Positions 8,571-43,380 of a DNA stretch of 64,000 nt are shown piece after piece. Both the position numbers and the translations under genes were made by a program. How positions within the stretch are numbered: the first letter of the stretch is position 1; each line of letters opens with the position of its first letter. Below the pieces are notes generated by a model. The model was given only the letters and a program-made list of their open reading frames with translations, had not been told where the DNA came from and made no database searches. Location: NCBI RefSeq assembly GCF_010686725.1, contig NZ_JAAGWZ010000002.1:186001-250000 (forward strand), written 5' to 3'. This DNA comes from Galbitalea soli (GTDB lineage: Bacteria > Actinomycetota > Actinomycetes > Actinomycetales > Microbacteriaceae).

Positions 8571-9368
8571 ATGTTCGACATAGCTGACGAACTCGATCAG
8601 GTCCGTGTCGAGCTGCGCGGCGACGTGGCGTGGATCACCCTCAACCGTCCCGAGAAGCGAAACGCGATCAGTGCCGGAATGCAGCGCCGCCTGCATGGTG
8701 TTCTCGATGAGTTGGCCGCTCGCGACGTGCGCGCGGTGGTGCTCACCGGTTCGGGAAGCGCCTTCTGCAGTGGCGCCGATCTCGGAGCCAACGACGAGGA
8801 GGCGGGCGTCGCAGCCGATTTCGATCGATTCTTGGCTGAAGGTGCAGCGTTCTTCCGGACGCTGTCGAACTTCCCTGCTCCCGTGATCGCAGCGGTCAAC
8901 GGGGTCGCTCTGGCGGGAGGCCTCGAATTGATGCTGGCGTGCGACTTCGTGATTGCCGCCGACTCGGCGCGAATCGGTGACGGCCACGCACGTTACGGAC
9001 TATTCCCCGGTGCGGGGGCGTCCGTGAGACTGCCGCGTCGCGTCGGCGCCGCATTCGCCAAGTATCTGATGTTCACCGGGGATCTCTTGCCCGCCACGGA
9101 CCTGGTTGTGCACGGGCTCGTGCAGATCGTCGTGCCCGCTGATCTGCTGGACAGTGAGGCGGACCGAATCTCTCAACTGATCGCCTCACGCAGTCCGCGC
9201 GCCCTCGCCGCCGTCAAGACGCTGGTGAATCAGTCCGAGGATGTGCCCGTGGACAGCGCGCTCCACGCCGAGTCGCTCGCCTTTCGGATTCATTTGAACT
9301 CGCCGGACAGCAGCGAAGGTACGGCGGCCTGGCGCGAGGGCAGACAGCCCAACTTTCGGGAGCTCTGA
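8571..9368 (+). CDS. Enoyl-CoA hydratase/isomerase (crotonase family)
   Basis: A 265-residue crotonase. The oxyanion-hole segments GSGSAFCSGADLG and AAVNGVALAGGLELMLACD are both present. One expected acidic catalytic position falls in RIGDGHARYGLFPG. It probably hydrates or isomerises the enoyl-CoA made by the dehydrogenase further downstream. It directly follows the ligase and overlaps the next start by one base, indicating one transcript. Confidence 0.88.
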   Translation: MFDIADELDQVRVELRGDVAWITLNRPEKRNAISAGMQRRLHGVLDELAARDVRAVVLTGSGSAFCSGADLGANDEEAGVAADFDRFLAEGAAFFRTLSNFPAPVIAAVNGVALAGGLELMLACDFVIAADSARIGDGHARYGLFPGAGASVRLPRRVGAAFAKYLMFTGDLLPATDLVVHGLVQIVVPADLLDSEADRISQLIASRSPRALAAVKTLVNQSEDVPVDSALHAESLAFRIHLNSPDSSEGTAAWREGRQPNFREL

Positions 9369-25208: not shown

Positions 25209-25394
25209 TTACTCCGACCCGTTGCGAGATTCTGGGGCCTCGTCGGCCGGCTGTGAGCCCGCCACCTCGTCCCGGAAGATGCGCAGCGATTGTCCGACCC
25301 CTCGTGTGAGCGCGGGAAGTCGTGTCGCGCCGAAGAGCAGCACGAGGACGGCGAGGATGATGACGAGATGCCACCCGGTCAGATTCGAGAACAT
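25209..25394 (-). CDS. tatA: Twin-arginine translocase subunit TatA
   Basis: A 61-residue protein. MFSNLTGWHLVIILAVLVLL is the single N-terminal membrane helix, followed by the FG hinge (LFGATRLPALTRG) and an amphipathic helix (GQSLRIFRDEV), then a short charged tail: the complete TatA layout. TatA forms the pore of the Tat export system for folded proteins. It is separated from tatC and lies beside the inulin genes. Its promoter carries near-identical copies of two operators from the GH91/ABC control region, so it is probably co-induced with them. The start at 25394 matches the family N-terminus; a longer frame to 25460 runs into the operators. Confidence 0.88.
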   Translation of the reverse strand: MFSNLTGWHLVIILAVLVLLFGATRLPALTRGVGQSLRIFRDEVAGSQPADEAPESRNGSE

Positions 25395-25438
25395 CGCTGG
25401 CCCCACTCTCAACTGGCACGGTTCGTTCCGGTGCCGCC

Positions 25439-25456
25439 TGACAAATCGTCTTGGCA
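25439..25456. promoter_or_regulatory. LacI-type operator at the tatA transcription start
   Basis: TGACAAATCGTCTTGGCA matches 16 of 18 positions of TGGCAAAACGTCTTGGCA at 33824-33841 in the central inulin control region. It spans the predicted tatA start point (about 25452). Confidence 0.7.
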
Positions 25457-25458
25457 GC

Positions 25459-25488
25459 ACACTAAGTTCGTCGAAGTCCGGCCGTCAA
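25459..25488 (-). promoter_or_regulatory. Promoter of tatA
   Basis: On the minus strand: TTGACG (25488 to 25483), 18-bp spacer, TAGTGT (25464 to 25459). Operators lie immediately upstream and over the start point. Confidence 0.6.
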
Positions 25489-25509
25489 ATGGCAAAAAAG
25501 TTTGGCGCC
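25484..25509. promoter_or_regulatory. LacI-type operator upstream of tatA
   Basis: GTCAAATGGCAAAAAAG followed by TTTGGCGCC. It aligns with the element at 33868-33892 (GTCAAATGCCAAAAAC then TTTGGCACC) with one extra base, so the same regulator should bind both. Confidence 0.7.
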
Positions 25510-25602: not shown

Positions 25603-26649
25603 CTAGAGCGCGGGAGCAGCGATCGACTGCCGAATGACCAGCGGGCACTCCATGAAGGTGGGGTGATCGCTCAGGAGGCGGTCCTCCTCGTGCCCGTTCA
25701 TGATCCGAACCAGTGTGTCGACGGCCCAGACGCCCATCTCGTAGTGGGGCAGGGCGACGGTGGTGAGCGCGGGGAACAGGTTGGCGGCGATTAGCTCCTG
25801 GTTGTCGAATCCCACGATCGACAACTCCTCGGGGATGGTGATGTGCAGTTCGGCCGCCGCACGGTAGGCACCCATCGCCATTCGGTCGTTGAAGCAGAAG
25901 AGCGCCGTCGGGCGGTCGGGCCGATCGAGCAGGGGCAGCGTGACCGCGTACCCGTCGAGCGCTTCGTAGTCGGCCGCGACCACGAGCGACTCGTCGAAGG
26001 GGATGCCGTGCTCGGCCAGCACCGAGCGGTAGCCGCGCAGTCGCCCGTGAGTCGCGGGAATGTCGCCGTGGTAGTTCACGAAGCCGATTCGGCGGTGCCC
26101 CGCCTGAATGAGCGCGGTGACGGCGGCACGCGCGCCACTCTCCTCATCGGGCTCGACACCGGGTGCGAGACCGGCACGGTCGCGCGCGTCGATCAGCACC
26201 GCGGGAACGCCTACCAGGTTCGACGGCAGAGAGACCTCGCGGTGATACATGATGGTCGCCCAGAGGATGCCGTCGACCTGCCGTTCGAGCAGCGCCGCGA
26301 TGTCGTCCCGCCGGGACTCGTCGTTCGCATCGTGCGTCGAGTTGATGATCATGAGCGACAGCCCGTGGGCGCGCGCGGCCTCCTGCGCCCCGAGGATGAT
26401 CCGCACGGCGTGCGGCGTCGTCGCGATCTCCTCGCTGAGCAGGCCGATCATCCCCGAGCGCTGCGTGCGCAGACCCTGCGCCAGGCGATTGGGGCCGTAC
26501 CCGAGTGCCCGGGCCGCGTCCTTCACCCGCCGCCGCGTCTCCTCGCTCGCGCGCGTGTTCGGGGTCGCGTTGAGAATGTGCGACACGGTCGTCACCGAGA
26601 CTCCCGCCGCGCTCGCGACGTCCTTGATGCCCACCCGTTTGGGAATCAC
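25603..26649 (-). CDS. LacI-family regulator of the inulin/DFA locus (copy 1)
   Basis: A 348-residue repressor: HTH IKDVASAAGVSVTTVSHILN, hinge helix NRLAQGLR, and a periplasmic-binding-like sensor domain ending in FDNQELIAANLFPALTTVALPHYEMG. It is a close paralogue of the LacI at 29486-30523 (shared IGLLSEEIATTPHA and RIILGAQEAARAHGL). It lies at the 3' end of the leftward fructan operon, 53 bp after the GH91 gene, and upstream of tatA. It probably binds the TGCCAAA/TTTGGCA operators; the inducer may be DFA III, inulobiose or fructose. Confidence 0.9.
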   Translation of the reverse strand: MIPKRVGIKDVASAAGVSVTTVSHILNATPNTRASEETRRRVKDAARALGYGPNRLAQGLRTQRSGMIGLLSEEIATTPHAVRIILGAQEAARAHGLSLMIINSTHDANDESRRDDIAALLERQVDGILWATIMYHREVSLPSNLVGVPAVLIDARDRAGLAPGVEPDEESGARAAVTALIQAGHRRIGFVNYHGDIPATHGRLRGYRSVLAEHGIPFDESLVVAADYEALDGYAVTLPLLDRPDRPTALFCFNDRMAMGAYRAAAELHITIPEELSIVGFDNQELIAANLFPALTTVALPHYEMGVWAVDTLVRIMNGHEEDRLLSDHPTFMECPLVIRQSIAAPAL

Positions 26650-26702: not shown

Positions 26703-28046
26703 TCAGGCGCCGACCGTCGGCGTCGCTCTGACGGCGTTGGCGGTGCGGTCCGCGACCACCTGCTCCTCGGTTCCGGAGTCCAGCACCGAGTTGCGGGCCG
26801 ACGCCGGGTCGACCAGCACGGTGGTCACGCCCAGCGCGTCGGATGCGGTGGTGCTGAGCAGGGCATCCACCTGTGCCGAGAACGCCGAATCGCCGGAGCG
26901 CGCGTGCACGTCCATCGCCACCACGTGGTTCGTGGCGACGAGGGTGCCGGTGCCCGCGGTCAGGCGGACCGCGACGGGCGTCGCCTGCGGCGGCCGGATG
27001 CGCTGCGCGTCGATCACCAGCGAGAGGTGGTTGGCGATCACCGAGTTGTGGTCGCCGCCGACGCGGATCAGGCCGAACCGGTCATCCAGACCGTTGTCGA
27101 TGCCGAGGAAGGGCGTCCACGGCTCTTCGTCGCGCAGCAGGTGGTTGGTGGCGATGAGGTTCTCCGAGCTGCCGCCGTCGAGGATCACCATGCCGGGGTA
27201 GAACGAGTGCAGGCGGTTGTTGGTGACGCTCGACCGGCTCACCCCGGTCAGATGCACGCTGCTCGCGCCTCGCGGGAAGACGTTGTTGGCGGTGATCAGC
27301 AGCCCGCCGTGGTTCTCGGCGTAGATGGAGCGACCCCGGAACCCGGCCCCGATCAGGTTGTCGGTGATCTTGGAGGCCTGTCCCCAGCCGAGGAGCTCGA
27401 CGCAGTTGCCGCACTCGGCGATGAAGTTGTCGTGGATCGACAGGGCGTCGGCGTGGTGGATGACGAGGGCGTGTTCGAGGTAGACGAAGCCCATGCCGAC
27501 CACGCGGAAGGAGTCGTTCGCGCTCGCGACGTGGATGCCGGTCTTCCCGTTGAGGTAGCTGTTCGCCGCCGGGTGCTCGGAGCCGTCCGGCAGGAAGCGC
27601 AGACCGTCGATGCAGAAGTTCGAGAACTCGACGGAGCTGATCCGCGGGCTGCCGCTCCGCTCCACGAGGAAGGCGGCGCGCGCGGAATCGTCCTCGCCCG
27701 CATCCGGTTCGAGGTCGACGAGGACGCGACTCCCGCCGGGCCACAGCTCATGCAGCTCGGGCCATTCGCCCTCGGGGACATTGAACCGGATGCTCGACGA
27801 GGTGAACCCGTGCCCAGAGCCGTGAATCGTCAGGAAGCTGACGTCGACGACCACCTGGGTGCGCAGGTGGTAGTCACCGGGCGGCAGGTAGATCACCGCC
27901 CCGGGCTTTCCGCCGTCGGCGACGTTCGCGTTCGACTGGCGGGTCTTGATGTCCGCGATGATGCTATTGATCACCTCACCGAGATCCGCGAAGGGATCCC
28001 CGACGGGCCACCGGGTGACGTCGTAGTGGTTGCTGGGTCCTGACAT
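26703..28046 (-). CDS. GH91 protein, cytoplasmic; probable difructose anhydride III hydrolase
   Basis: A 447-residue right-handed parallel beta-helix protein of the inulin fructotransferase family: VIYLPPGDYHLRTQV, FLTIHGSGHGFTS, ENHGGLLITANNVFPRGASSV. The pair Asp200 (ADALSI) and Glu211 (IAECGN), 11 residues apart, matches the Asp/Glu pair reported for the family. There is no signal peptide, and compared with the second GH91 here (about 400 aa) it is longer, with inserts near 90-120 and 390-415. Known DFA-III hydrolases are intracellular and about this length, so hydrolysis of DFA III to inulobiose is favoured. A fructotransferase role is the alternative. It lies 23 bp after the GH32 gene. 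Confidence 0.85.
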   Translation of the reverse strand: MSGPSNHYDVTRWPVGDPFADLGEVINSIIADIKTRQSNANVADGGKPGAVIYLPPGDYHLRTQVVVDVSFLTIHGSGHGFTSSSIRFNVPEGEWPELHELWPGGSRVLVDLEPDAGEDDSARAAFLVERSGSPRISSVEFSNFCIDGLRFLPDGSEHPAANSYLNGKTGIHVASANDSFRVVGMGFVYLEHALVIHHADALSIHDNFIAECGNCVELLGWGQASKITDNLIGAGFRGRSIYAENHGGLLITANNVFPRGASSVHLTGVSRSSVTNNRLHSFYPGMVILDGGSSENLIATNHLLRDEEPWTPFLGIDNGLDDRFGLIRVGGDHNSVIANHLSLVIDAQRIRPPQATPVAVRLTAGTGTLVATNHVVAMDVHARSGDSAFSAQVDALLSTTASDALGVTTVLVDPASARNSVLDSGTEEQVVADRTANAVRATPTVGA

Positions 28047-28069: not shown

Positions 28070-29413
28070 TCAGTGAAGCGGGTAGGCCACACCGGCGGCC
28101 TCGCGGGAGACCAGGGTGGCGGTCCCGGAGCGGGGAGCGGGAAACGCGAGGGCGCCGAACGAGCCGACGACCTCGACGATGGGACCGTCGATGACGACCC
28201 GGAGCGGTCCGCTGGACGGAACCGACCACTGCCCGGCGTCCGATGTCGCGGTGAGCGTCACCCCGTCGAGGGTCGGCGTCAACTCCAGCCGGAAGACATT
28301 GCGCAGCCCCTCCTGAAGGGAAATGCTGCCCCCGTGCGCCCAGTCGATGTCCACGGCGCCGTCGACCCGCATCCCGTGCTCATCGAGCGCGGCGAGCGGT
28401 CTCCCGGATCCGCGGCGCGACTCCACGCTGGACGGGAGCCGGACCTCGAGCCGATCGCCGATCAGCGCGAGCTGGTGGGGAATACTGTGGGCGCCCACCC
28501 ACTCCGAGCGGGGGTCGGCGACACCCCGGAGCCAGTAGATCATCCCGGGAGTGCCGTCCGCATCGCGGAAGACGGCGCCCGCGTAGTAGCACGGGCCGTA
28601 GCTGAGCCGACGCCACGGCGTCTCCGCCACGAAGCGACCGTCGACGATCTGGCCGAGCGCGTAGGCCGAGTAGTGCGGGCGCACGGGTTCCCAGACCGAG
28701 ACGAGCAGTGCCCACTTGTGCCCCACCCGAACGAGTTGGGGGCACTCCCAGACGGAACCGGTCCACACTCCGTCTGCGTCGTCGGAGTGGCGGGAAGCGA
28801 AGACACCGTCGTAGTGCCACGTGGTGAGGTCATCCGAGACATAGCCATAGGCGACCGCGGTTCCGTCGGGACGCCCGGAGCCGAGAAGCATGCGCCAGCG
28901 GGCACCGTCGTGGAATACGAAGGGATCGCGGAACGCGATCGACTCCTCTCCCTCGGCGAGTTCGGCGACGACCGGCCCTTTCACCCACCGCTCCCACGAG
29001 CTCTCGCTGCCCGGCGCCGGGCGTGCGATCCGCGCCGCGCCGATGTCGAAGGCCTCGTCGTCGACGGAGGTGTAGAACAGGGTCGCCTCGCCCTCCGGTG
29101 AGAGCGCGATGCTGCCCGACCAGCATCCGCCATCGCCGTCGCCCGGCTCGAGCGCGGCGGCTTCGATCGACCAGCTCAGCAGGTCGTCGGAGGTGGCGTG
29201 CCCCCACTGGCACTGCGGAGCCCAGTCGGTGGCACCCGGTACGTGCTGATAGAAGAGGTGGTAGCGCCCGCCGTGGAAGGTGAGGCCCAGGGGGTCGTTG
29301 ATCCACCCGGACGGGGCCGTGAAATGGAGAGTGGGCCGCGCAGCCGTCGTCTCGGGCGGGGCGGTGTCGTCGACCTCGACGGTGTGGTCCTCGGTCGCGG
29401 TGGATGGGGGCAT
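28070..29413 (-). CDS. Cytoplasmic GH32 beta-fructofuranosidase
   Basis: A 447-residue GH32 enzyme (five-bladed propeller plus beta-sandwich). The three active-site motifs are intact: GWINDPLG with nucleophile Asp40, FRDP with transition-state Asp163, and WECPQ with acid/base Glu223. No signal peptide is present, so it works in the cytoplasm. It lies between LacI copy 2 and the GH91 hydrolase gene and probably splits inulobiose or short fructo-oligosaccharides to fructose. The first 25 residues are an acidic, Thr/Pro-rich lead not seen in most relatives, so a later start is possible. Confidence 0.88.
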   Translation of the reverse strand: MPPSTATEDHTVEVDDTAPPETTAARPTLHFTAPSGWINDPLGLTFHGGRYHLFYQHVPGATDWAPQCQWGHATSDDLLSWSIEAAALEPGDGDGGCWSGSIALSPEGEATLFYTSVDDEAFDIGAARIARPAPGSESSWERWVKGPVVAELAEGEESIAFRDPFVFHDGARWRMLLGSGRPDGTAVAYGYVSDDLTTWHYDGVFASRHSDDADGVWTGSVWECPQLVRVGHKWALLVSVWEPVRPHYSAYALGQIVDGRFVAETPWRRLSYGPCYYAGAVFRDADGTPGMIYWLRGVADPRSEWVGAHSIPHQLALIGDRLEVRLPSSVESRRGSGRPLAALDEHGMRVDGAVDIDWAHGGSISLQEGLRNVFRLELTPTLDGVTLTATSDAGQWSVPSSGPLRVVIDGPIVEVVGSFGALAFPAPRSGTATLVSREAAGVAYPLH

Positions 29414-29485: not shown

Positions 29486-30523
29486 CTAGGGCTGCCGCGG
29501 TGGGGCGACGGAGTCTCGCGGTACCAGCGGGCACGGCAGGAGCACGGGCTCGAACGGCCCGGGCGGGCGCTCCGCTCCGTCGGCGAACATCCCGATGGCG
29601 GTCTCGAGCGCCCACACGCCCATCTCGTAGTGAGGCAGGGCGACGGTGGTGAGCGCGGGGAAGAGGTTGGCGGCGATGATCTCCTGGTTGTCGAAGCCGA
29701 CGATGGAGAGGTCGTCGGGGATGCTCAGACCGAGCTCGCGCGCCGCGCGATAGGCGCCCATCGCCATGCGATCGTTGTAGCAGAAGACGGCCGTCGGTCG
29801 CTGAAGGCTCAGGATCTCCTTCGCCAGCGCGTATCCCTCGGCCGGCTCCGACGGCGAGGCACCGACGAGCAGTTCGTCGAACGGAATCCCGTACTCGGAG
29901 AGCACCTGACGGTAGCCGGCCAGTCGTCCGTGCGTGGCGGGCACGTCGTCATCGTTGTTCAGGAACGCGATCCGGCGGTGGCCCGCCTCGGCCAGGTGAC
30001 GGACTGCGGCGACGGCCCCGCCCCTCTCGTCGGGGACCACGGAGGGCAGCGCGCCGGTTCCCTCGGTCGCGTCGATGAGCACCGCGGGCACGTCGACGAG
30101 GTTGGCCGGCACCGCGATGTTCCGGTGGTACATGGTGGCGTACAGCACCGCGTCGACCTGCCGGTCGAGCAGCGCCTGGATATCGGCCCGGTGCGCCTCC
30201 GCGTTGTTGCCGCGCTCGGCGCTCACGATCACCAGTGTGAGACCGTGCGCACGCGCGGCCTCCTGAGCGCCGAGGATGATCCTGCCCGCGTGGGGTGTCG
30301 TGGCGATCTCCTCGCTGAGGAGGCCCACGAGCCCGGATCGACGGGTCCGAAGCGCCTGCGCCACGAGATTGGGCCCGTACCCCAGCGTCGCCGCCGCGTC
30401 GCGGACTCGGTCCCTCGTCTCATCGGCGACCCGGGTGTGCGGCGTTTCGTTGAGCACGTGCGAGACCGTGGTGACCGACACGCCGGCCAGCCTCGCCACA
30501 TCGCGGATACCGACGGTGGTCAC
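29486..30523 (-). CDS. LacI-family regulator of the inulin/DFA locus (copy 2)
   Basis: A 345-residue LacI protein: HTH IRDVARLAGVSVTTVSHVLN, hinge NLVAQALR, sensor domain ending FDNQEIIAANLFPALTTVALPHYEMG. GTG 30523 has GGAG eight bases upstream and gives the usual N-terminus; the frame open to 30676 adds non-homologous residues. It is a clear paralogue of the LacI at 25603. It follows the permease gene by 118 bp, within the leftward operon. Confidence 0.88.
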   Translation of the reverse strand: MTTVGIRDVARLAGVSVTTVSHVLNETPHTRVADETRDRVRDAAATLGYGPNLVAQALRTRRSGLVGLLSEEIATTPHAGRIILGAQEAARAHGLTLVIVSAERGNNAEAHRADIQALLDRQVDAVLYATMYHRNIAVPANLVDVPAVLIDATEGTGALPSVVPDERGGAVAAVRHLAEAGHRRIAFLNNDDDVPATHGRLAGYRQVLSEYGIPFDELLVGASPSEPAEGYALAKEILSLQRPTAVFCYNDRMAMGAYRAARELGLSIPDDLSIVGFDNQEIIAANLFPALTTVALPHYEMGVWALETAIGMFADGAERPPGPFEPVLLPCPLVPRDSVAPPRQP

Positions 30524-30641
30524 CGTGACGTCTCCCTCGTCGGGCGCATCGGCTGACTTCCGTGGAGGCGGCGAACCCGCTCGCGGGGGTGTCGGGCGTT
30601 CATGGTGTCGGTTCGTCCCTTCGGGGAGTGTGCAGCGGGGG

Positions 30642-31481
30642 TCATCCCTTGACCGCTCCCAGGGTGAGCCCGGCAACGATGTGGCGCTGCAGCACGAGCG
30701 TGAGCAGGATGACCGGCACCGAGTACAACACCGCGAGCGAGGTCATCGGTCCCCACGCTAGGCCGAATTGACTCTGGTAGTTGGCGATTTCCAGCGGAGT
30801 GGTGACGGCGCGAACGGAGGTGAGCAGCAGAGCGAAGATGAAGTCGTTCCACGACGCCAGGAACGCGAAGATCGCGGTGACGGCGACGCCGCCGCGCGCC
30901 ACCGGCAGCACGACGCGCCAGAGGGCACCCAGACGCGAGGTTCCATCCACGCGCGCCGCCTCCTCCAGCTCGTCGGGCACCGCGTCGAAGAAGCTCGCCA
31001 TCAGCCAGATCGAGAGCGGCAGAGAGATCGTGGTTTGCGCGATCGCCAGCGCGAGTGAGGTGTCGGAGAGCCCGAGAGCGTGGAAGAAGCCGATCAGCGG
31101 AGCGCCCACCACGATGGCCGGCACCATGCGCATGACGAGCGCGGTCAGGATGAACACCCGCCCGAGCCGCGTCTTCCACCGTGTCACGGCATAGGCCGCG
31201 GGGATCGCCAGCGCGAGAGACAGCAGCGTGCTGATTACCGCCGTCTGGATGCTGTTCAGGATCGACACCGGGACGGCCGAATTCGTGAGCGTGCTCACGT
31301 AGTTCTCGATGGTCCAGGTGGTCGGGAAGAAGGTGGGGGGAATCGCGTTCGTCTCGAGGGGCGTCTTGAAGGAGGTGAAGAGCATGTAGGCGAATGGATA
31401 CGCGTACAGCACGGTCATGAGGATCAGGACCAGCCAGAGGAGGGCGCGGGTCGACATCCGCTTGGTTTCGAGGCCATTCAT
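30642..31481 (-). CDS. Sugar ABC transporter permease (CUT1, MalG type)
   Basis: A 279-residue membrane protein of the carbohydrate uptake 1 family, six segments, with the EAA loop DELEEAARVDGTSRLGALWRVVLP. The C-terminus (VAGLTLGAVKG) is the typical MalG end. It is coupled by a one-base overlap to the upstream permease. The likely cargo is DFA or short inulin oligosaccharides. No ATPase is encoded nearby, so a shared MsmK/MsiK-type ATPase elsewhere must power it. Confidence 0.88.
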   Translation of the reverse strand: MNGLETKRMSTRALLWLVLILMTVLYAYPFAYMLFTSFKTPLETNAIPPTFFPTTWTIENYVSTLTNSAVPVSILNSIQTAVISTLLSLALAIPAAYAVTRWKTRLGRVFILTALVMRMVPAIVVGAPLIGFFHALGLSDTSLALAIAQTTISLPLSIWLMASFFDAVPDELEEAARVDGTSRLGALWRVVLPVARGGVAVTAIFAFLASWNDFIFALLLTSVRAVTTPLEIANYQSQFGLAWGPMTSLAVLYSVPVILLTLVLQRHIVAGLTLGAVKG

Positions 31482-32443
31482 CAGCGGTCACTCCCGGGTC
31501 GCCAGATTGCTGCTACGGCGACGATCGCGAGTGCGATCATCGCGACGAGGTAGATCGTGCCCATGGCGCTCGCGAGCCCGGGATTGCCGTCACTGATCTG
31601 GGTGTTGTAGACGAGCAGCGACATCGTCTCGGTCGAATTCTGCGGGCCGCCATTGGTTTGCACGACGATCACGTCGAAGGCCCGGGCCGCATCCACTCCG
31701 CGCACGATGAGCGCGACCGCGATGACCGGGCGCAGCAGGGGCAGGATGACCCGGAACAGGAGGGTGGGGTACCGGGCTCCGTCGATGCGCGCGGCCTCGA
31801 TGATGTCGCCCGGAATGTTCTGCAGGCCCGCGAAGAGCACCAGCGCGATGAACGAGGTGGTGAGCCAGATATCGGGCAGCGAGACGGCCAGGAGCGCGAT
31901 CTTGGGGTCGCTCAACCACTGGATCTGGGTCGGCGAGCCGATGATGTGAAGCTGGAACAGCAACTGGTTGACGATTCCGGTGTTGTCGATGAGGAGGAAT
32001 CGCCAGAGGAGACCGGCGACGATCGGGGCGATCATGAGTGGGTACATGAAGATCGTGCGGAACACCCGCGACCGGCTGCCTAAGCCGCTGAACAGCAGGG
32101 CGACGAGGAGGCCCAGGGAGAATTCGAGGAACACGACGATCGCCGTGTAGGCGATCGTGCGCACGGCGGAGTTCGTGAACGCGGCCGAGCCGAACGCCGC
32201 GATGTAGTTGCCGAAGCCGACGAAGCGATGCGGGGCGTCGCTGATGGGGTTGTAGCGGTAGAAGCTGTTGGTGATGAATTGCGCGAGCGGCCAGGCGACG
32301 AAGACCGCCATGAATGCAGCGGCCGGCGCCATCATGAGTGCCGCGAATCGCGCATCGGTGAGGCGGAGCGAACGACGCCGGGGTGCGGAGGAGCCGGGGA
32401 CGGCCGGCCCGAAGGCCGGCCGTCTGTTGGTGCGAATGCTCAT
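31481..32443 (-). CDS. Sugar ABC transporter permease (CUT1, MalF type)
   Basis: A 320-residue permease with a cytoplasmic N-terminus (RRSLRLTDARFAALM) and the EAA loop GDIIEAARIDGARYPTLLFRVILP. It pairs with the 30642 permease to form the channel. It overlaps the binding-protein gene by four bases. Confidence 0.88.
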   Translation of the reverse strand: MSIRTNRRPAFGPAVPGSSAPRRRSLRLTDARFAALMMAPAAAFMAVFVAWPLAQFITNSFYRYNPISDAPHRFVGFGNYIAAFGSAAFTNSAVRTIAYTAIVVFLEFSLGLLVALLFSGLGSRSRVFRTIFMYPLMIAPIVAGLLWRFLLIDNTGIVNQLLFQLHIIGSPTQIQWLSDPKIALLAVSLPDIWLTTSFIALVLFAGLQNIPGDIIEAARIDGARYPTLLFRVILPLLRPVIAVALIVRGVDAARAFDVIVVQTNGGPQNSTETMSLLVYNTQISDGNPGLASAMGTIYLVAMIALAIVAVAAIWRPGSDR

Positions 32444-33753
32444 TGAGCCACAATCGCGTCGACCTGCGCCGCGGCATCCTTGAGGATCGCCGCGTTGTCT
32501 GCGCCGGGCTGAAGAGACTTCTGGATCATCGGCACGAGAACGTTGTTGACGATGTTCTGCCAGTTCGCGTTCGCGGGGCGCGGGATCGTCGCCGGGGCGT
32601 TGAGCGTTGCGACGATGGCCGGGTACGACTCGTAGCCCTTCGTGTTCTCGAACTTCTTGAGAGCGGAGATGCGCGCCACGAGTCCGAGCGAGGTGGCCGC
32701 GCTCAGTTCGTTGTGGTCGTAGGCGAACTTGACGAAGGCCTCACCCGCTGCGGTGTGCGCACCCGCGCGCGGCACCGACAGGTAGAACGGACCCGGTACG
32801 CCCGCGACGCCCGCGGGACCACCGATCATCGGGGCGACCCCCGTCTTGCCGAAGACGGGAGAGTCGGTCGGAATCTGACGGTAGGCGTGTCCCCAGAACA
32901 ACATCATCGCTGCCTTGCCCTGGTTGTAGAGGTTCTGCGCGGCATTCCAGTCCACGGCGGCCGCCCCGGGAGGGCCGTACTTCGCGAGGCTGTCGTAGTA
33001 GTTCAGAGCGGTCAAGGTCGTCGCGTCGTCGAGCGTCGACTTCTTGCCGTCGGCGGTGAGAACCATGTTCTTCTCGCCGGCCTGCGACAGCACCGCCAGG
33101 AACTGGGTCTCGACCGCGCCGGGCAGCGGGGCGCCGTACATGCCGTCCTTGGTGAAGAACGCCGCGGCATCCGTGTACTGCTGCCAGGTCGTGGGCGGCT
33201 TCAGGTCGTAGCCGTACTTCGCCTTGAACGCCGCCTGGTTGGCGGGGTCGTTGAAGAGGTCGGTGCGGTAGTAGAGGATCTCGGAGTTGGCGAACGCGGG
33301 AATGCCGACGTAGTTGTTCCCGACCTTCCCCTCCTGCAGGATCGCGGGGAAGCTGTCGGCCTTGACCGCCGGCGTCACGAGGTTGTTGAGCGGCTTGAGG
33401 CCGGCGGCGAACGCGGGCAGCCAGATCGCGTCGAGCGCGGCGGCGTCGAAGGAGATGTTTCCGGTGGACAGCTCGCTGTTGACGCGGTTATAGAGGCCGT
33501 TGTACGGGAGCTCCACGAAGGTGACGCTGATACCGGTCTGCTTCTTGTAGAGGTCGGCGATCGGCTGCAGCTCGAGGTGACCGCCACCCTCGACGAGGAC
33601 GGTGAGCGACTTGACGTGGGCCGAGTCGGACGTGCTGGACGTGGCGCAGCCGGCCAGGACGAGGCCGGCGGCCGCGGCCACCGCCATCCCGACGAGGAGC
33701 CTCCCGCGGGAGGTGTGTGCGCGGTGGGGTACCGCGGATCTGGTGCGAAGCAT
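32440..33753 (-). CDS. Sugar-binding lipoprotein of the inulin/DFA ABC transporter
   Basis: A 437-residue extracytoplasmic binding protein. After a basic N-terminus, AAAAGLVLAGC is the lipoprotein signal. The mature protein has the family 1 layout: LTVLVEGGGHLELQPIADLYKKQTGISV, AALDAIWLPAFAAGLKPLN, and the MMLFWGHAYRQIP ligand region. GGAGTAACG precedes the ATG at 33753. It is the first gene of the leftward operon under the operator-controlled promoter. By position it is the best candidate for capturing DFA released outside the cell. Confidence 0.88.
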   Translation of the reverse strand: MLRTRSAVPHRAHTSRGRLLVGMAVAAAAGLVLAGCATSSTSDSAHVKSLTVLVEGGGHLELQPIADLYKKQTGISVTFVELPYNGLYNRVNSELSTGNISFDAAALDAIWLPAFAAGLKPLNNLVTPAVKADSFPAILQEGKVGNNYVGIPAFANSEILYYRTDLFNDPANQAAFKAKYGYDLKPPTTWQQYTDAAAFFTKDGMYGAPLPGAVETQFLAVLSQAGEKNMVLTADGKKSTLDDATTLTALNYYDSLAKYGPPGAAAVDWNAAQNLYNQGKAAMMLFWGHAYRQIPTDSPVFGKTGVAPMIGGPAGVAGVPGPFYLSVPRAGAHTAAGEAFVKFAYDHNELSAATSLGLVARISALKKFENTKGYESYPAIVATLNAPATIPRPANANWQNIVNNVLVPMIQKSLQPGADNAAILKDAAAQVDAIVAQ

Positions 33754-33801: not shown

Positions 33802-33829
33802 ATCTTACGGTGACCAAACGTTTTGGCAA
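33802..33829 (-). promoter_or_regulatory. Leftward promoter of the transporter/GH91/GH32 operon
   Basis: On the minus strand: TTGCCA (33829 to 33824), 16-bp spacer, TAAGAT (33807 to 33802). The near-palindrome CCAAACGTTTTGG (plus-strand 33814-33826) fills the spacer, so a bound repressor would block polymerase. Confidence 0.65.
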
Positions 33830-33841
33830 AACGTCTTGGCA
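33814..33841. promoter_or_regulatory. Two overlapping LacI-type operators in the leftward promoter
   Basis: CCAAACGTTTTGG (33814-33826) overlaps TGGCAAAACGTCTTGGCA (33824-33841). The second is nearly identical to the tatA operator at 25439. Confidence 0.7.
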
Positions 33842-33867
33842 TGAAGATATGGCGGCCAAATCTCGCT

Positions 33868-33892
33868 GTCAAATGCCAAAAACTTTGGCACC
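33868..33892. promoter_or_regulatory. LacI-type operator, central palindrome
   Basis: TGCCAAA-AAC-TTTGGCA is a perfect 7-bp inverted repeat (33874-33890), preceded by GTCAAA and followed by CC. It aligns with the tatA upstream operator at 25484. Confidence 0.75.
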
Positions 33893-33906
33893 AGGGGTGC
33901 CGCGGG

Positions 33907-33926
33907 TGGCAAAAATCTTTGGCACC
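33907..33926. promoter_or_regulatory. LacI-type operator upstream of the rightward promoter
   Basis: TGGCAAAAATCTTTGGCACC, a third copy of the TGSCAAA...TTTGGCA pattern, 20 bp before the rightward -35 box. Confidence 0.65.
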
Positions 33927-34041: not shown

Positions 34042-34233
34042 GTGAACATTCCGGCACTCGTCATCAGCCGTCGCACCGTGCTCCAGGCCGTGATCGCGTC
34101 CACGATCATCGGCCGGTTGGGTGGCACTCCGACTCCGCCGCATCCGAATCCGCTCGCCGCGCCATCGGGTCCGCCCGCCGACTTGCCCGCGGCAGCCGCG
34201 GCTCATCGAAAGTTCCAGGTCGGCCTACTCTGA
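34042..34233 (+). CDS. Twin-arginine leader peptide ORF, out of frame with the GH91 gene
   Basis: A 63-residue ORF with GTG start and AAAGGAG five bases upstream, 60 nt after the predicted transcription start. It encodes a Tat-like signal: ISRRTVLQAVIASTIIG (twin Arg, then hydrophobic core), a Pro-rich stretch and an AAAAAH segment that could be a cleavage site. It stops 44 bp before the GH91 frame and is in a different frame. Either a frameshift (real or sequencing error) has separated the signal from its enzyme, or this is a relic. As an independent protein it has no recognisable domain. Confidence 0.6.
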   Translation: MNIPALVISRRTVLQAVIASTIIGRLGGTPTPPHPNPLAAPSGPPADLPAAAAAHRKFQVGLL

Positions 34234-34277: not shown

Positions 34278-35480
34278 TTGAGCACCGTCTACGACGTCAC
34301 CGCATGGACCATTCCCGGCAGCAGCGTCACCTGCTACGACGACATCGGCGCCGTCATCAACAGCATGATCGCCGACGTGAAGGCGCATCAGACCTCGCAG
34401 TCGGCGAAGCCGGGAGCGGTCATCTACATTCCGCCGGGCGACTATCCGCTCAAGACCCGGGTGACCGTGGATATCAGCTATCTGACGATCCGAGGATCCG
34501 GCCACGGCTTCACCTCGCTGAGCATCCGCTACAACACCTCGAACACCTCGGCCTGGTACGAGATCAATCCGGGCTCCAGCCACGTGACGGTTCAGAACAC
34601 GGACGGCAATTCTGAAGCCTTCATCGTCACTCGCGGCGGCGACCCCCGGCTCAGCAGTGTGACCTTCGAGAACTTCTGTCTCGACGGGATGGCGTTCACA
34701 CCGAACGAGAACTCCTACACCAACGGCAAAATCGGCATTCGCTTCGACAGCGCGAACGACTCCGCCCACATCCAGAACATGGGCTTCGTCTACCTCGAAC
34801 ACGCGCTCATCGTGAAGAACGCCGACGCGCTCCGCGTCACCGACAACTTCATCGCCGAGTGCGGCAACTGCATCAAGCTCACCGGCTCCGGGCAGGCGAG
34901 CACGATCTCCAACAACTCCATCGGAGCGGGGTACGTGGGCTACTCGATCTACGCCGAGTCCTTCTTCGGGCTCCTGGTGACCGGCAACAACGTGTTTCCC
35001 CGGGGAAAGTCGTCTGTCACGCTCGTGAACTGCACGCTGTCGAGCATCACGTCGAACCGGTTCCACGCCTTCTATCCCGGCGTCGTCAACCTGTCGGGGG
35101 TGTGCACCGAGAACCTCATCAGTGGCAACCACTTCTACAGGCAGCCCGAGACGTACGGGCCATTCGTCGGCAACAACAACGGCCTCGACGACCTCTTCGG
35201 ACTGGTGCAGCTCAACGGCAGCAACAACGCGCTCATCGCCAACCACTTCTCATTCAACGTGCCGTCGGGCTCGATCACGCCGAGCGGGGCGACACCCACG
35301 CTCGTTCTCGTCAAGTCCGGCGACGGAAACTATCTGGCGTCGAACCACTTCGTGGCGAACGTGGCGGTGCACACCGTCGTGCTGGACGCGAGCACGACGA
35401 ACACGCACGTCATGGACAGCGGTACCTCGGCGCAGTTCCAGGCCTATTCGACGAGCTACGGGTTCCGGGCGACGCCGTGA
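34278..35480 (+). CDS. GH91 inulin fructotransferase (DFA-forming)
   Basis: A 400-residue parallel beta-helix enzyme that cleaves terminal difructose units of inulin and cyclises them to difructose anhydride (DFA III or DFA I). Core signatures are VIYIPPGDYPLKTRV, YLTIRGSGHGFTSLS and FGLLVTGNNVFPRGKSSV. The catalytic Asp183 (ADALRV) and Glu194 (IAECGN) lie 11 apart as in the other GH91. The apparent start is TTG 34278 with AAGGAGG four bases upstream. This form has no signal, but a Tat signal lies just upstream in another frame. The shorter length and pairing with a secreted GH32 suggest an extracellular enzyme. Product type cannot be read from sequence. Confidence 0.87.
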   Translation: MSTVYDVTAWTIPGSSVTCYDDIGAVINSMIADVKAHQTSQSAKPGAVIYIPPGDYPLKTRVTVDISYLTIRGSGHGFTSLSIRYNTSNTSAWYEINPGSSHVTVQNTDGNSEAFIVTRGGDPRLSSVTFENFCLDGMAFTPNENSYTNGKIGIRFDSANDSAHIQNMGFVYLEHALIVKNADALRVTDNFIAECGNCIKLTGSGQASTISNNSIGAGYVGYSIYAESFFGLLVTGNNVFPRGKSSVTLVNCTLSSITSNRFHAFYPGVVNLSGVCTENLISGNHFYRQPETYGPFVGNNNGLDDLFGLVQLNGSNNALIANHFSFNVPSGSITPSGATPTLVLVKSGDGNYLASNHFVANVAVHTVVLDASTTNTHVMDSGTSAQFQAYSTSYGFRATP

Positions 35481-37852
35481 CGGCCGGTTCTCGCGCGGTG
35501 GCGCTGCGGCGTTCGGCGCTCGCCGTCGCCGCGATCGTGCTCGGCGGCATCCTGCTGCCCGCTCTGGCCGGCCAGTCGGCACGGGCGGGCACCGCGGCGG
35601 GCTACCCGGAATTCCCCTACGCCTCGACCACCTACAGCGAGCCGTTCCGCGGGCAGTTCCACTTCAGCCCGCCGAACGGGTGGATGAACGACATCAACGG
35701 TCCCGTCTACTACCGGGGCGTCTACCACCTGTTCTTCCAGAGCAATCCGCACTCGCTCGGTGCCAACAACGACATCCACTGGGGGCACGCGACGAGCACC
35801 GACCTGGTGCACTGGACCCAGCAGCCCATCGCGCTCGAACCCGGTGTTCACGCACCCGGCGGACCGCAGAGCCTGCTGTGGTCGGGATCGGCGTGGGTCG
35901 ACACGGCCAATGTCACGGGACTGCGCAGCGGATCGGATGACCCCATCCTGCTCTTCACGGGAACGGACGGCGTCAGCATCGCGTACAGCGTCGATGGCGC
36001 GAGGACCTTCCACATGTACAACGGCGGCGCTCAGGTGGTCTCCACGGGAACCACGCAGAGTCGCGACCCGAAGGTGCAGTGGGATCCCGTCGGCAACCGC
36101 TGGGTGATGGTGCTCTACGACTTCACCGGCTCCCAGGGAGCGAGCTTCTACACCTCGACGAACCTGCTGTCGTGGGTGAAGGTGGGTCACTACTCCGCGA
36201 GCTGGTTCGTGGAGTGCCCTGATCTCTACGAATTACCAGTCGATGGCAACACGGCGAACGAGCGCTGGGTGCTGCAGGATGCGGGCGGTCACTACCTCGT
36301 CGGGCACCTGGACGCGTCGAGCATGTTCGTTCCCGATTCGACGACTCCTCTCACCATGGAATCCGGCGCGACCAACTACGGCGGCACCTGGTACGCCTCC
36401 CAGACCTTCAACCAACTGCCCTCGGCGCGGGTCGTCCAGGTGGGGTGGCAGGGTGGCAACCACGGGGCGACATGGACGGGCAATGCCTCGTTCCCCGCGC
36501 AACTCGGGCTGAGCACCTACTCCGATGGCATCCGGCTGACGCGGAACCCCGTGGCGGAGATCGCGAGCCTTCGGGCCAGCACACAATCGTGGTCGTCGCG
36601 GTCCATCACGACGAGTCCGGCGTCGGATCCGTTCACGGCGACGACGGGTGACAGCTACGAGATCCAGAGCAGCTTCGCGACCGCGGGGGCCACGGCGACG
36701 TCCGTCTCGTTCTCACTGCATCGGCGATCAGACGGCTCCAGCGACGCGTCCGTCTCCTATGACCTGACCACGCAGCAGCTCGTCGTCGACAACGCGGCGG
36801 GGAGCGTGCACCCCACGTTCGCTGCAGCGATGCCGCCGATCAACGGTGCGGTGAGCATCCACATCTTGGTGGATCGCGGCCAACTCGAGGTGTACGGCAA
36901 CGACGGCAGAACCGTGATCAGCGACAACGTCGATTTCAACTCCGGTGCGACCAGTCAGGGGATCGCGCTGACGGCGACCGGTGGCTCGATCACGGCGAGC
37001 AGTCTGTCGTTCTCGCCGCTGCGCTCCGCGTGGCTCGCCTCGCCCGAGGGGGTCTCGCCGGGCGGTGCCATCGTCGCCGCTCTGTCACAGCTGTCCCGAT
37101 CTCAGCCCACCGATCCCGAGACGATGAAGTGCGTCGACAACGACGGCCCCACCGGCAACGTTCAGATCTGGGATTGCACCGGCGGCTCGAACCAGTCCTG
37201 GCTCCTCCAGGCCGACGGGTCGCTCGTCGTGAACGGCGTGTGCATGCAGCTCCCCGCCGGCCAGACGGCCAACCACACCCTCGTGCAGACGGCACCGTGC
37301 TCGGGTGCGGCCAACCAGCAGTGGGCCCGCGGCAACTTCGGTGCCATCGTCAACGTGCTCTCCGGGCGCTGTCTCGACGTGGATTACAGCAACTACACGA
37401 ACGGGCAGCGGCTGCAGGTCTACGACTGCGTCGGGTCGCCCAATCAGGCGTGGGTCGGCCCCACCCGTGCTCTGCCGCCGTCCGGTGCGATCGTGTGGGA
37501 CGCCCTGTCGAAGTGCCTGGACCGCGATGTGGCGTCGGGACGGGCGCAGATCTGGGACTGCCTCGGAAACGGCAACCAGACCTGGACGATGAACACCGAC
37601 GGGACGATCACGACGGCGGGAGTCTGCCTGGAGGTTCCGCCCGGGCAGACCGCCAACCACACACTCGTCGATGTCGCGAGCTGCACGGGTTCGACGAACC
37701 AGCAGTGGACTCGCGTCGCCAATCAGGGGCTGCAGAACGTCGCCGCGGGGCGCTGCATCGATCTGAATTACGGCGACACGACCAACGGGCGGCAGCTTCA
37801 GCTGTACGACTGCGTGGGTGGTGCGAACCAGTATTGGATCGCACCCGCGTAG
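35477..37852 (+). CDS. Secreted GH32 fructanase with two ricin-type lectin (CBM13) modules
   Basis: A 791-residue exported enzyme. GTG 35477 overlaps the GH91 stop (GTGA). Residues 1-38 are a signal (LRRSALAVAAIVLGGILLPALAG; the RR is compatible with Tat). The GH32 propeller has Asp72 in GWMNDING, Asp197 in SRDPKV and Glu246 in ECPDL, followed by the beta-sandwich to about 510. Two beta-trefoil modules follow (about 525-655 and 660-791) with paired Cys and QxW repeats (NQSWLL, NQQWAR, NQAWVG; NQTWTM, NQQWTR). It probably trims inulin or levan outside the cell while held to polysaccharide. Confidence 0.88.
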   Translation: MTAGSRAVALRRSALAVAAIVLGGILLPALAGQSARAGTAAGYPEFPYASTTYSEPFRGQFHFSPPNGWMNDINGPVYYRGVYHLFFQSNPHSLGANNDIHWGHATSTDLVHWTQQPIALEPGVHAPGGPQSLLWSGSAWVDTANVTGLRSGSDDPILLFTGTDGVSIAYSVDGARTFHMYNGGAQVVSTGTTQSRDPKVQWDPVGNRWVMVLYDFTGSQGASFYTSTNLLSWVKVGHYSASWFVECPDLYELPVDGNTANERWVLQDAGGHYLVGHLDASSMFVPDSTTPLTMESGATNYGGTWYASQTFNQLPSARVVQVGWQGGNHGATWTGNASFPAQLGLSTYSDGIRLTRNPVAEIASLRASTQSWSSRSITTSPASDPFTATTGDSYEIQSSFATAGATATSVSFSLHRRSDGSSDASVSYDLTTQQLVVDNAAGSVHPTFAAAMPPINGAVSIHILVDRGQLEVYGNDGRTVISDNVDFNSGATSQGIALTATGGSITASSLSFSPLRSAWLASPEGVSPGGAIVAALSQLSRSQPTDPETMKCVDNDGPTGNVQIWDCTGGSNQSWLLQADGSLVVNGVCMQLPAGQTANHTLVQTAPCSGAANQQWARGNFGAIVNVLSGRCLDVDYSNYTNGQRLQVYDCVGSPNQAWVGPTRALPPSGAIVWDALSKCLDRDVASGRAQIWDCLGNGNQTWTMNTDGTITTAGVCLEVPPGQTANHTLVDVASCTGSTNQQWTRVANQGLQNVAAGRCIDLNYGDTTNGRQLQLYDCVGGANQYWIAPA

Positions 37853-41895: not shown

Positions 41896-43380
41896 ATGCG
41901 ACCTCCCGTCTTCTTCCAGCCCGTCACCGGATGGGTCGGCGACGTGATCCCGGTCGCGCATGACGGCGCCTTCTGGCTGTACTACCTGCACGAACTCCGC
42001 GCCGATCCGAAGCCCGGCACGCCCTGGAATCTCGTGACCACGACCCACGGCGTCGACTTCGACGACCGCGGCGTCGCCTTCCCGCACGGCGGCCCCGATG
42101 ACCCCGACTTCAACGTGTACACCGGGAGCATCGTCCGGGGCCCGGACGGCATCCACCACCTCTTCTACACGGGCCAGAATCCTCGCCGCCTGGGCGCCGA
42201 CGGCCAGCCCCTGCAGCTCGTGATGCACGCGACGAGCGACGATGGCATGGCGAGCTGGAGCCGCCACGGCGAGCACACCGTGGGTGCCCCGGAGGGCTTC
42301 GAGACGGCCGACTGGCGAGACCCCTTCGTCTTCCAGGATGACCGCACCGGCCTCTGGCGCATGCTCGTCGCCGCGCGGCACGACTCCGGCCCCGCCCGTC
42401 GCCGCGGTGTGATCGCGCAGCTGACCTCGCCGGATCTGGTGCACTGGACCCCGGTCGACCCCTTCTGGGACCCGCGCCGCTACGTGACCCACGAGTGCCC
42501 GGACGTCTTCCGTTGGGGCGACTGGTGGTACCTCGTCTACTCGGAGTTCACCGACTCCTTCACCACCCGGTACCGCATGGCGCGCACCCCGGACGGCCCC
42601 TGGCTGGTGCCCGAGCACGACTCGGTCGACGGTCGCGCCTTCTACGCGTCGAAGTCGGCCGAGCTCGGCGGTCGCCGCTTCTTCTTCGGCTGGATCGCGA
42701 CGAAGGAGAGATCCCGCGATGACGGCGCGTGGCAGTGGGCCGGAACGATGTCGGTACTCGAGGCGCACCAGCGGGCCGACGGCACGCTCGGCTTCGGCTT
42801 CGCTCCCGAGCTCCTCGACAGCTTCACCGAGCGCCTGGATGTCGCCCTTCCGTCGCCGCTGCCGCTGGCACTCCGGGTGCCCGACGGCTATGCGAGCGCG
42901 GTCTCCACGACCGTGCTTCCCGCGCAATACCGTGCGCGTCTCGTCGTCGACATCGCAGGGGGCACCACCGAGTGCGGTCTGCTGCTGCGCGCGAGCGCCG
43001 ACGGCGACGAGGGCTACGTGATCCGCCTGGAGCCCAGGCGCGGCCGGATGGTCTTCGATCGCTGGCCGCGTGCGGTCACGGGAGCCGCCCAGTGGCAGGT
43101 CTCCGGTGACGTTCCCTTCGTGATCGAGCTCGAGCGGCCCTGCGATCTCGGGCCGGGCGAGCACACCCTCGACGTGGTCGTCGATGACGATCTCTGCGTG
43201 GCCGTCCTCGATGGACAGGTCGCGCTGAGCACGCGCATCTACGACCGAACAGACGGGCGAATTGGCGTATTCGCCGGTGAGGGATCCGCGGTCATCCGCG
43301 ACCTTCACGTCTTCCAACGCGCCGAAACCGCAACACCCTCACCACTATTGTCCCAATCAAAGGAGATGGAAGAACAATGA
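41896..43380 (+). CDS. Cytoplasmic GH32 protein, Aec43-like subfamily
   Basis: A 494-residue GH32 enzyme without signal peptide. The usual W-x-N-D-P-N-G motif is replaced by GWVGDVIPV, with Asp16 as nucleophile; Asp142 (WRDPFV) and Glu200 (THECPDV) complete the triad. This GDVIP form is typical of the E. coli Aec43 (FosGH2)-like group, which acts on fructo-oligosaccharides or other short fructosides. It starts the second fructan operon; no Shine-Dalgarno precedes the ATG. Because it is linked to a levan-type locus it may hydrolyse an unusual fructoside such as a DFA. This is inference. Confidence 0.85.
   Translation: MRPPVFFQPVTGWVGDVIPVAHDGAFWLYYLHELRADPKPGTPWNLVTTTHGVDFDDRGVAFPHGGPDDPDFNVYTGSIVRGPDGIHHLFYTGQNPRRLGADGQPLQLVMHATSDDGMASWSRHGEHTVGAPEGFETADWRDPFVFQDDRTGLWRMLVAARHDSGPARRRGVIAQLTSPDLVHWTPVDPFWDPRRYVTHECPDVFRWGDWWYLVYSEFTDSFTTRYRMARTPDGPWLVPEHDSVDGRAFYASKSAELGGRRFFFGWIATKERSRDDGAWQWAGTMSVLEAHQRADGTLGFGFAPELLDSFTERLDVALPSPLPLALRVPDGYASAVSTTVLPAQYRARLVVDIAGGTTECGLLLRASADGDEGYVIRLEPRRGRMVFDRWPRAVTGAAQWQVSGDVPFVIELERPCDLGPGEHTLDVVVDDDLCVAVLDGQVALSTRIYDRTDGRIGVFAGEGSAVIRDLHVFQRAETATPSPLLSQSKEMEEQ

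Follow-up and report, generated by a model that had tools for sequence, protein, structure and literature searches.

The window, by which we mean the whole 64-kb stretch of DNA that was analysed, contains an inulin cluster laid out on both sides of a divergent control region (33812-33924), with an ABC operon on one side and an escort peptide gene and an inulin fructotransferase (IFTase) gene on the other. The genes were named from Pfam profiles and matches to solved structures. On the minus strand, the order is an ABC solute-binding protein (SBP) gene (32440-33753), two sugar ABC permease genes (31481-32443 and 30642-31481), the regulator gene lacI2 (29486-30529, start uncertain), a GH32 beta-fructosidase gene (28070-29413; Pfam Glyco_hydro_32N), GH91a (26703-28046), a further LacI-family regulator gene, lacI1 (25603-26649; Pfam LacI and Peripla_BP_3), and tatA (25209-25394), which encodes a lone accessory subunit of 61 amino acids, probably of the TatA type. 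GH91a is a difructose anhydride III hydrolase (DFA-IIIase; PDB 5zl5, E 5e-224, and 5zks, E 1e-223), and no signal peptide was seen in this protein or in the beta-fructosidase. On the plus strand, a small open reading frame (ORF) of 63 codons, the escort gene (34042-34233), starts with GTG behind AAAGGAG and is followed by GH91b, the leaderless IFTase (34278-35480; PDB 2inu, E 4e-144, and 9j4i, E 2e-140), and by a secreted GH32 enzyme with ricin-B lectin repeats and a twin arginine (RR) in its N-terminus (35498-37852; Pfam). The four operator matches of the control region lie at 33812, 33825, 33874, and 33908. Some 4 kb past the cluster, also on the plus strand, are a GH32-like gene and an ABC binding-protein-like gene (41896-44720, named by eye), with no operator match.

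The product of tatA matches Pfam TatA_B_E with 54 bits (cut-off 21), and its likely start is the ATG at 25394. The preliminary description spoke of a lone tatA at 25209-25509; a real tatA lies there, but the gene itself ends at this start, and the rest of the span is promoter region. With the NCBIfam models, the protein scored 57 and 50 bits for TatA, not reaching the cut-offs of 72 and 53.9, and 21 bits for TatB. The sole TatC match of the genome is at position 352777 of contig C1, a different contig from that of the window (C2), and the housekeeping tatA adjoins this single tatC gene. A TatB-like gene is also found elsewhere in the genome, with 46 bits, below the model cut-off of 56.5. As the housekeeping tatA-tatC pair is on another contig, the tatA of the window is an additional TatA.

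Upstream of tatA, two pieces had been proposed as operators, and both were found when the sequence was read directly. The first, at 25439-25456 (TGACAAATCGTCTTGGCA), agrees with 33824-33841 (TGGCAAAACGTCTTGGCA) at 16 of 18 bases, and the second, at 25484-25509, can be aligned to 33868-33892 if one inserted base and three differences are allowed. Together they form one collinear block of 71 bp (25439-25509, minus strand) with two LacI-type candidate operators, homologous to the ABC-operon block at 33824-33892 and in the same orientation at both sites, upstream of the minus-strand tatA and SBP genes. The local alignment of the two blocks has a score of 56; none of 2000 dinucleotide shuffles reached it (maximum 38), and the best score among 604 other 208-bp chunks of the window, both strands counted, was 36. 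Six copies of the palindrome TGCCAAANNNTTTGGCA, allowing up to three mismatches, are present in the window where 0.62 are expected: four in 33812-33924, one at tatA (25491-25507, three mismatches), and one inside lacI1 (26628). A second palindrome, GCCAAAANNNTTTTGGC, had no match in the window. The promoter of tatA thus has palindromic operators in common with the regulated operon. This shared block, and two relatives that carry tatA at the same system, support, on sequence alone, the original proposal that tatA is a member of the inulin LacI regulon. As for the site at the start of lacI1 (26628-26644, three mismatches), it perhaps reflects autoregulation or chance.

Scanning named genomes for GH91 genes yielded 277 loci of relatives, of which the best 80 were kept, so distant loci are under-sampled. 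Among these best 80 of 277, a clear TatA was detected by profile at one locus, L054, with a marginal match at L130 (E 0.005). L054 comes from an uncultured Leifsonia (a metagenome-assembled genome), and its IFTase, 86% identical to that of the window, is the closest among the best 80 of 277. Here, a lone tatA is transcribed away from the escort and IFTase genes, and the intergenic region aligns with the ABC/IFTase control region of the window with a score of 120 (maximum of 1000 shuffles, 39), as if tatA had apparently been placed where the window has the SBP gene. In the other relative, L177, from another Microbacteriaceae genus and found among seven further IFTase loci with flanks, the gene string reads SBP-ABC-ABC-lacI-GH32-pfkB-escort-IFTase-tatA-DFAIIIase, with tatA inside the string about 70 nt after the IFTase stop codon. 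The operators themselves could be followed into the relatives in part. The L054 intergenic region contains the palindrome TGCCAAA-N5-TTTGGC, a longer-spaced variant of the operator (the pattern was written from the site itself), but the 17-bp form is absent at the L054 tatA, and the regions upstream of tatA in the window and in L054 align with a score of 29, within the range of shuffles (up to 45). In each of L177 and L054, the 17-bp pattern matches once, at the promoter of the SBP gene, a number that chance alone would give; for L177, 39 of 200 shuffles equalled it.

Counting the window, tatA is present at 3 of 11 Microbacteriaceae escort-type loci with flanks (the window, L054, L055, L075, L079, L080, L110, L173, L174, L176, and L177), in three different arrangements; L087 and L153, also from Microbacteriaceae, have short flanks and are outside the 11. 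We estimate that an accessory tatA would lie within 10 kb of a given locus by chance in well under 1% of cases. At escort-type loci outside the Microbacteriaceae, some of which have short flanks, no tatA was found. Since other escort-type loci have no tatA, the gene is not required for escort-type export generally. The TatA tree is barely resolved, and the three IFTase-linked copies do not group as one clade.

Accessory tatA genes also occur in other contexts in this family. At least two TatA-like matches were found in 26 of 90 Microbacteriaceae genomes, some of them possibly TatB or assembly duplicates. Two are in sugar-type ABC strings: L036 (2881-6800; G003, the same genus as the window) has tatA and a tatB-like gene, and L039 (6978-10370; G079) has a lone tatA, the binding protein carrying a Tat-type signal in both. 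Within the Microbacteriaceae, ABC strings with a lone tatA seem to be a recurring arrangement. At L038, L041, L045, L049, and L053, an accessory tatA and a tatB-like gene, in some cases with tatC, lie beside a gene for a conserved protein (xPxPExTPxGPxYEGR..., with RR further inside), which may be a Tat-exported dioxygenase-like protein. Sets of tatA-tatB-tatC-like genes adjoin GH32 fructan genes at L050 (7964-10971), where a GH32 protein has the RR signal FHRRALFQG, and at L054 (4256-5533), about 4 kb from the lone tatA. In accessory TatA proteins (L054, 9312-9500; L177, about 9160-9339; and several others), a comparison by eye often showed Leu (R-I-L) at a position occupied by Phe in the window protein and in most housekeeping copies. 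This position may correspond to the conserved Phe39 of E. coli TatA, the residue number being that in the accessible part of PMC4148689. RR proteins were found up to five genes away at 10 of 13 accessory and 3 of 7 housekeeping tatA loci, with loci sorted by eye and a regular expression that also caught TatC and other membrane proteins, so the contrast is a weak one.

The ORF at 34042-34233 had been described as a leader ORF at the IFTase. The ORF and its twin-arginine motif exist, but it is not the leader of the IFTase: it is a separate, conserved small gene. Its product has a twin-arginine signal (SRRTVLQ), a Pro/Ala-rich linker, and the C-terminus KFQVGLL-stop, and the IFTase starts at a TTG (34278) behind its own AAGGAGG, in a different frame. 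For a survey, 153 GH91 places were reduced to 142 by removal of identical ones and to 140 when the duplicate entry for L071 and L156, an edge fragment, were also dropped. Of these 140 distinct genes, 56 are nearer to IFTase and 84 nearer to DFA-IIIase. An escort was called where a separate ORF with a twin-arginine signal lies within 600 nt upstream, whatever its C-terminus. By the RR rule, 8 of the 56 IFTase genes have a fused signal and 48, including that of the window, have no in-frame RR signal; the rule flagged L136 as fused, but we judged this hit spurious and, with an escort present, assigned the gene to the split set. In many leaderless IFTases, only a few codons separate the start from the enzyme core. 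A separate RR ORF is found upstream of 42 of the 48, or 43 with that of the window, which the hydrophobic-run rule missed and which was found by eye. The window gene therefore shares its architecture with 42 others.

Although the C-terminus was ignored in the search, all 42 genes have such an ORF with the ending G[VLM][LIV]-stop; L076 has, in addition, another RR ORF that lacks it. In the 43 escorts, residue -3 is always G, residue -4 is always I, V, or L, and residue -1 is L in 41 and I in 2, whereas the ending was seen in none of 940 shuffled upstream regions (L085 skipped). No escort was found at the 84 DFA-IIIases (three chance RR ORFs) or at the eight fused IFTases (one chance RR ORF). 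Escorts are 54 to 77 amino acids long, and the gap to the IFTase is 11 to 211 nt, with the three frames represented 9, 16, and 17 times; as gap length and frame both vary, escort and IFTase are separate proteins. Both arginines of the pair are conserved without exception in the 36 escorts that were aligned (of 43), 13 of which match Pfam TAT_signal at an E value of at most 1; the window escort matched no family. Besides the window, five genes have no escort by the rule. The escort of L085 is partly N, L087 has only 266 nt upstream before the contig edge, and L169 is distant (34 to 36% identity). The other two, L055 and L081, are second tandem IFTase copies whose first copies have an escort. 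In these two loci (L055, 8785-11200; L081, 10001-12436), two tandem leaderless IFTases follow a single escort gene, and one escort might serve both. A phylum-wide draw of 396 genomes gave no new IFTase locus.

The distribution of the two states was followed on a tree built from the 56 IFTases together with four DFA-IIIases, for which the window and L085 were labelled split by hand. The split state is spread over the IFTase tree, including remote branches and the gammaproteobacterial L092. Fused signals make up two separate groups, one in Arthrobacter/Nocardioides and one in Streptosporangiaceae, each beside or among split ones; the support is 97/90 for the Streptosporangiaceae group among split ones and 85/78 and 89/84 for Arthrobacter/Nocardioides. 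This suggests that the split state is likely ancestral for IFTases, which the midpoint root and several long branches of the tree keep from being proven. Where the enzyme carries a fused Tat signal of its own, the separate ORF is missing, a pattern that is expected if the ORF supplies the signal. The two fused groups are a Rosetta-stone pattern that apparently equates the escort with a signal peptide.

Based on these results, we consider it probable that the escort carries the leaderless, folded IFTase through the Tat system and that tatA, regulated together with the cluster, adds to Tat capacity when inulin is present. The IFTase would be made without a signal peptide, and the co-encoded escort would supply the twin-arginine signal. 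After translation, the C-terminal hook of the escort (consensus H-R-x-L-I-G-V-L-COOH) would bind the folded enzyme. The Tat core, TatC and the TatB-like protein encoded elsewhere, would then recognise the escort signal, and the complex would cross together by hitchhiking. Upon cleavage of the signal, a remnant of about 30 residues would either remain with the enzyme or detach. Outside the cell, the IFTase would produce difructose anhydride (DFA) from inulin; the ABC system would import this product, and the DFA-IIIase and GH32 would degrade it, this direction of sugar flow being one that we infer. LacI would repress the extra tatA together with the cluster, and the sugar would switch it on, so that more pore subunits would be present when a bulky cargo is exported in quantity. 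The IFTase, which we take to be cofactor-free, is presumably a trimer, as in solved structures, and the cargo may therefore be large. Uptake and intracellular hydrolysis of DFA-III have been given as a scheme for A. aurescens, in the part of that report available to us (PMC4640833).

More tentatively, with a confidence that falls just short of even, the cluster could be seen as a self-contained, sugar-inducible Tat module that serves one polysaccharide enzyme. In it, a mini-protein some 60 residues long (Tat signal, linker, and [IV]-G-[VL]-L-COOH hook) would tow the leaderless IFTase, a dedicated TatA would be co-induced to fit or feed the bulky cargo, and the separate signal, which looks ancestral, would have become fused at least twice. 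When the L054 escort and IFTase were modelled as one chain with AlphaFold2, the IFTase folded well, 300 of 477 residues having a pLDDT of at least 90, and the escort was undocked, with residues 1-78 below 50 (about 30); since the escort was tethered in a monomer and its C-terminus was not free, the model is weak evidence either way. A comparison of split and fused IFTases showed no clear binding patch, with only three split-conserved positions changed in both fused clades.

Unlikely, yet deserving real weight, is the possibility that induction of the lone tatA boosts Tat export as a whole, or that the gene works for a different substrate, for example, the secreted GH32, in which case its proximity to the IFTase would reflect shared sugar control only. 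Accessory tatA genes are common in the family, as the 26 of 90 genomes show, and in two ABC operons (L036 and L039) they stand with a binding protein that has a Tat-type signal. Moreover, the secreted GH32, which may take either the Sec or the Tat route, could be another Tat cargo, since it has RR in the window and in 2 of 7 readable relatives (L054 and L072). The other five readable relatives have no RR in this enzyme, though, and the L177 string, with its IFTase, has no such secreted GH32 between its listed genes. The occurrence of tatA at escort-type IFTase loci in three different arrangements, one of them inside the gene string, also argues for a link with the IFTase rather than with Tat export at large.

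Arrest peptides of the SecM/MifM type have an N-terminal export signal, a loose linker, and conserved C-terminal residues, and they are encoded just 5' of the gene that they regulate. The layout of the escort (N-terminal signal, loose linker, conservation only before the stop codon, upstream position) is compatible with such a peptide, here a secretion monitor with a Tat signal that would control IFTase translation and not carry the enzyme. This explanation is improbable, as it leaves the export of the leaderless IFTase unexplained, does not predict the absence of the ORF beside fused RR signals (0/8), and fits poorly with a spacing between ORF and IFTase that ranges from 11 to 211 nt.

It is in our opinion distinctly improbable that tatA is constitutive or silent and the match to the operators in front of it a relic copy. 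The 17-bp pattern does have three mismatches at tatA, and it is not enriched genome-wide, with 21 sites compared to 36 for the reversed control, even if 6 of the 21 genomic sites fall in the 8.4-kb stretch of the inulin cluster. A sigma-70 promoter search at tatA scored none; a TTGAC-like -35 element is visible by eye. Against this stand the 71-bp collinear block, which is far above shuffles, the palindromic operator that adjoins tatA in L054, and the position of tatA within the gene string in L177. Finally, a frame that differs from that of the IFTase in the window could suggest a decayed, frameshifted IFTase signal peptide (a pseudogene or sequencing error), but this is scarcely credible given the separate ORF with the same ending 5' of 42 further IFTases from many genera and the independent start of the IFTase; a frameshift, read-through, or pseudogene origin of the leader was rejected in view of the varying gap and frame and the conserved ending.

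Export of the IFTase by its escort, aided by a co-regulated TatA, has partial precedents. In Tat hitchhiking, one partner has a signal and the other has none, and FAD-glucose dehydrogenase is said to travel in this way. The same principle is described for the E. coli hydrogenases in the available text of PMC10924467. Here, the escorts have the Tat signal of a carrier, and 48 of the 56 IFTases, by the RR rule, have the missing signal peptide of a cargo. The E. coli hydrogenases are cofactor enzymes with full-size partner subunits, whereas in the escort system the carrier is a mini-protein and the cargo a carbohydrate enzyme. The closest parallel in layout is MelC1-MelC2 of Streptomyces, a complex that is secreted by Tat via the signal of its caddie and that likewise consists of a small upstream gene with a twin-arginine motif, a short spacer, and the enzyme gene (PMC8375020, in part). 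MelC1, however, is larger (a 396-bp ORF) and is a folding and copper chaperone, unlike the escorts, which have a signal, a linker, and a hook only; a link with tatA, as seen in the window, is not described in the part of that paper available to us. Homology of the two is not supported either, the best of seven escorts reaching E 0.068 and 13.3 bits in the MelC1 family NF047833 (cut-off 120). TIGR02811 (formate dehydrogenase region TAT target) is a further small Tat-signal protein, which the L057 escort matches with E 5.8e-07, below the cut-off and in the signal region only; its gene neighbourhood is, by name, a different one, and the C-terminus of the escort is unmatched. The fused-signal IFTases of Arthrobacter belong to the same enzyme family and have RR on the enzyme (L088, L090, and L091; also L161), with no escort found.

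In Bacillus subtilis, TatAd-TatCd is encoded beside its substrate PhoD and co-regulated with it. That system is a TatA-TatC pair, whereas the window has TatA alone, with TatC and TatB encoded elsewhere; in the whole genome, no TatC accompanies the tatA of the window. What the two do share is linkage, seen in three loci between tatA and its putative substrate; co-regulation of these two is deduced from the order of the genes and the sequence of the promoter. Campylobacter jejuni also has two TatA proteins (TatA1/TatA2), the second of which affects different substrates differently, as described in the accessible part of PMC4148689, where neither a sugar regulon nor a small escort is mentioned; the window cluster appears to have both. 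According to the available text of PMC4361764, TatA is able to bind substrates independently of TatBC. In the open-access literature that we searched, no description of a split IFTase leader or of a sugar-regulon tatA was found. The extracellular, DFA-I-forming IFTase of A. globiformis S14-3 is encoded by a gene without a signal peptide, as the part of PMC5448860 available to us states, and a split escort-IFTase system would explain how this leaderless enzyme comes to be outside the cell.

The two-gene arrangement amounts to a testable export rule, in many actinobacterial genera and in one gammaproteobacterium. If it is true, the hook, with its few residues, would be a natural hitchhiker tag of very small size for leaderless folded enzymes, and such a tag would be useful for secreting IFTase, a DFA-producing enzyme. 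The inducible lone TatA would also give a handle on whether TatA dosage or type limits or tunes the export of a single large substrate.
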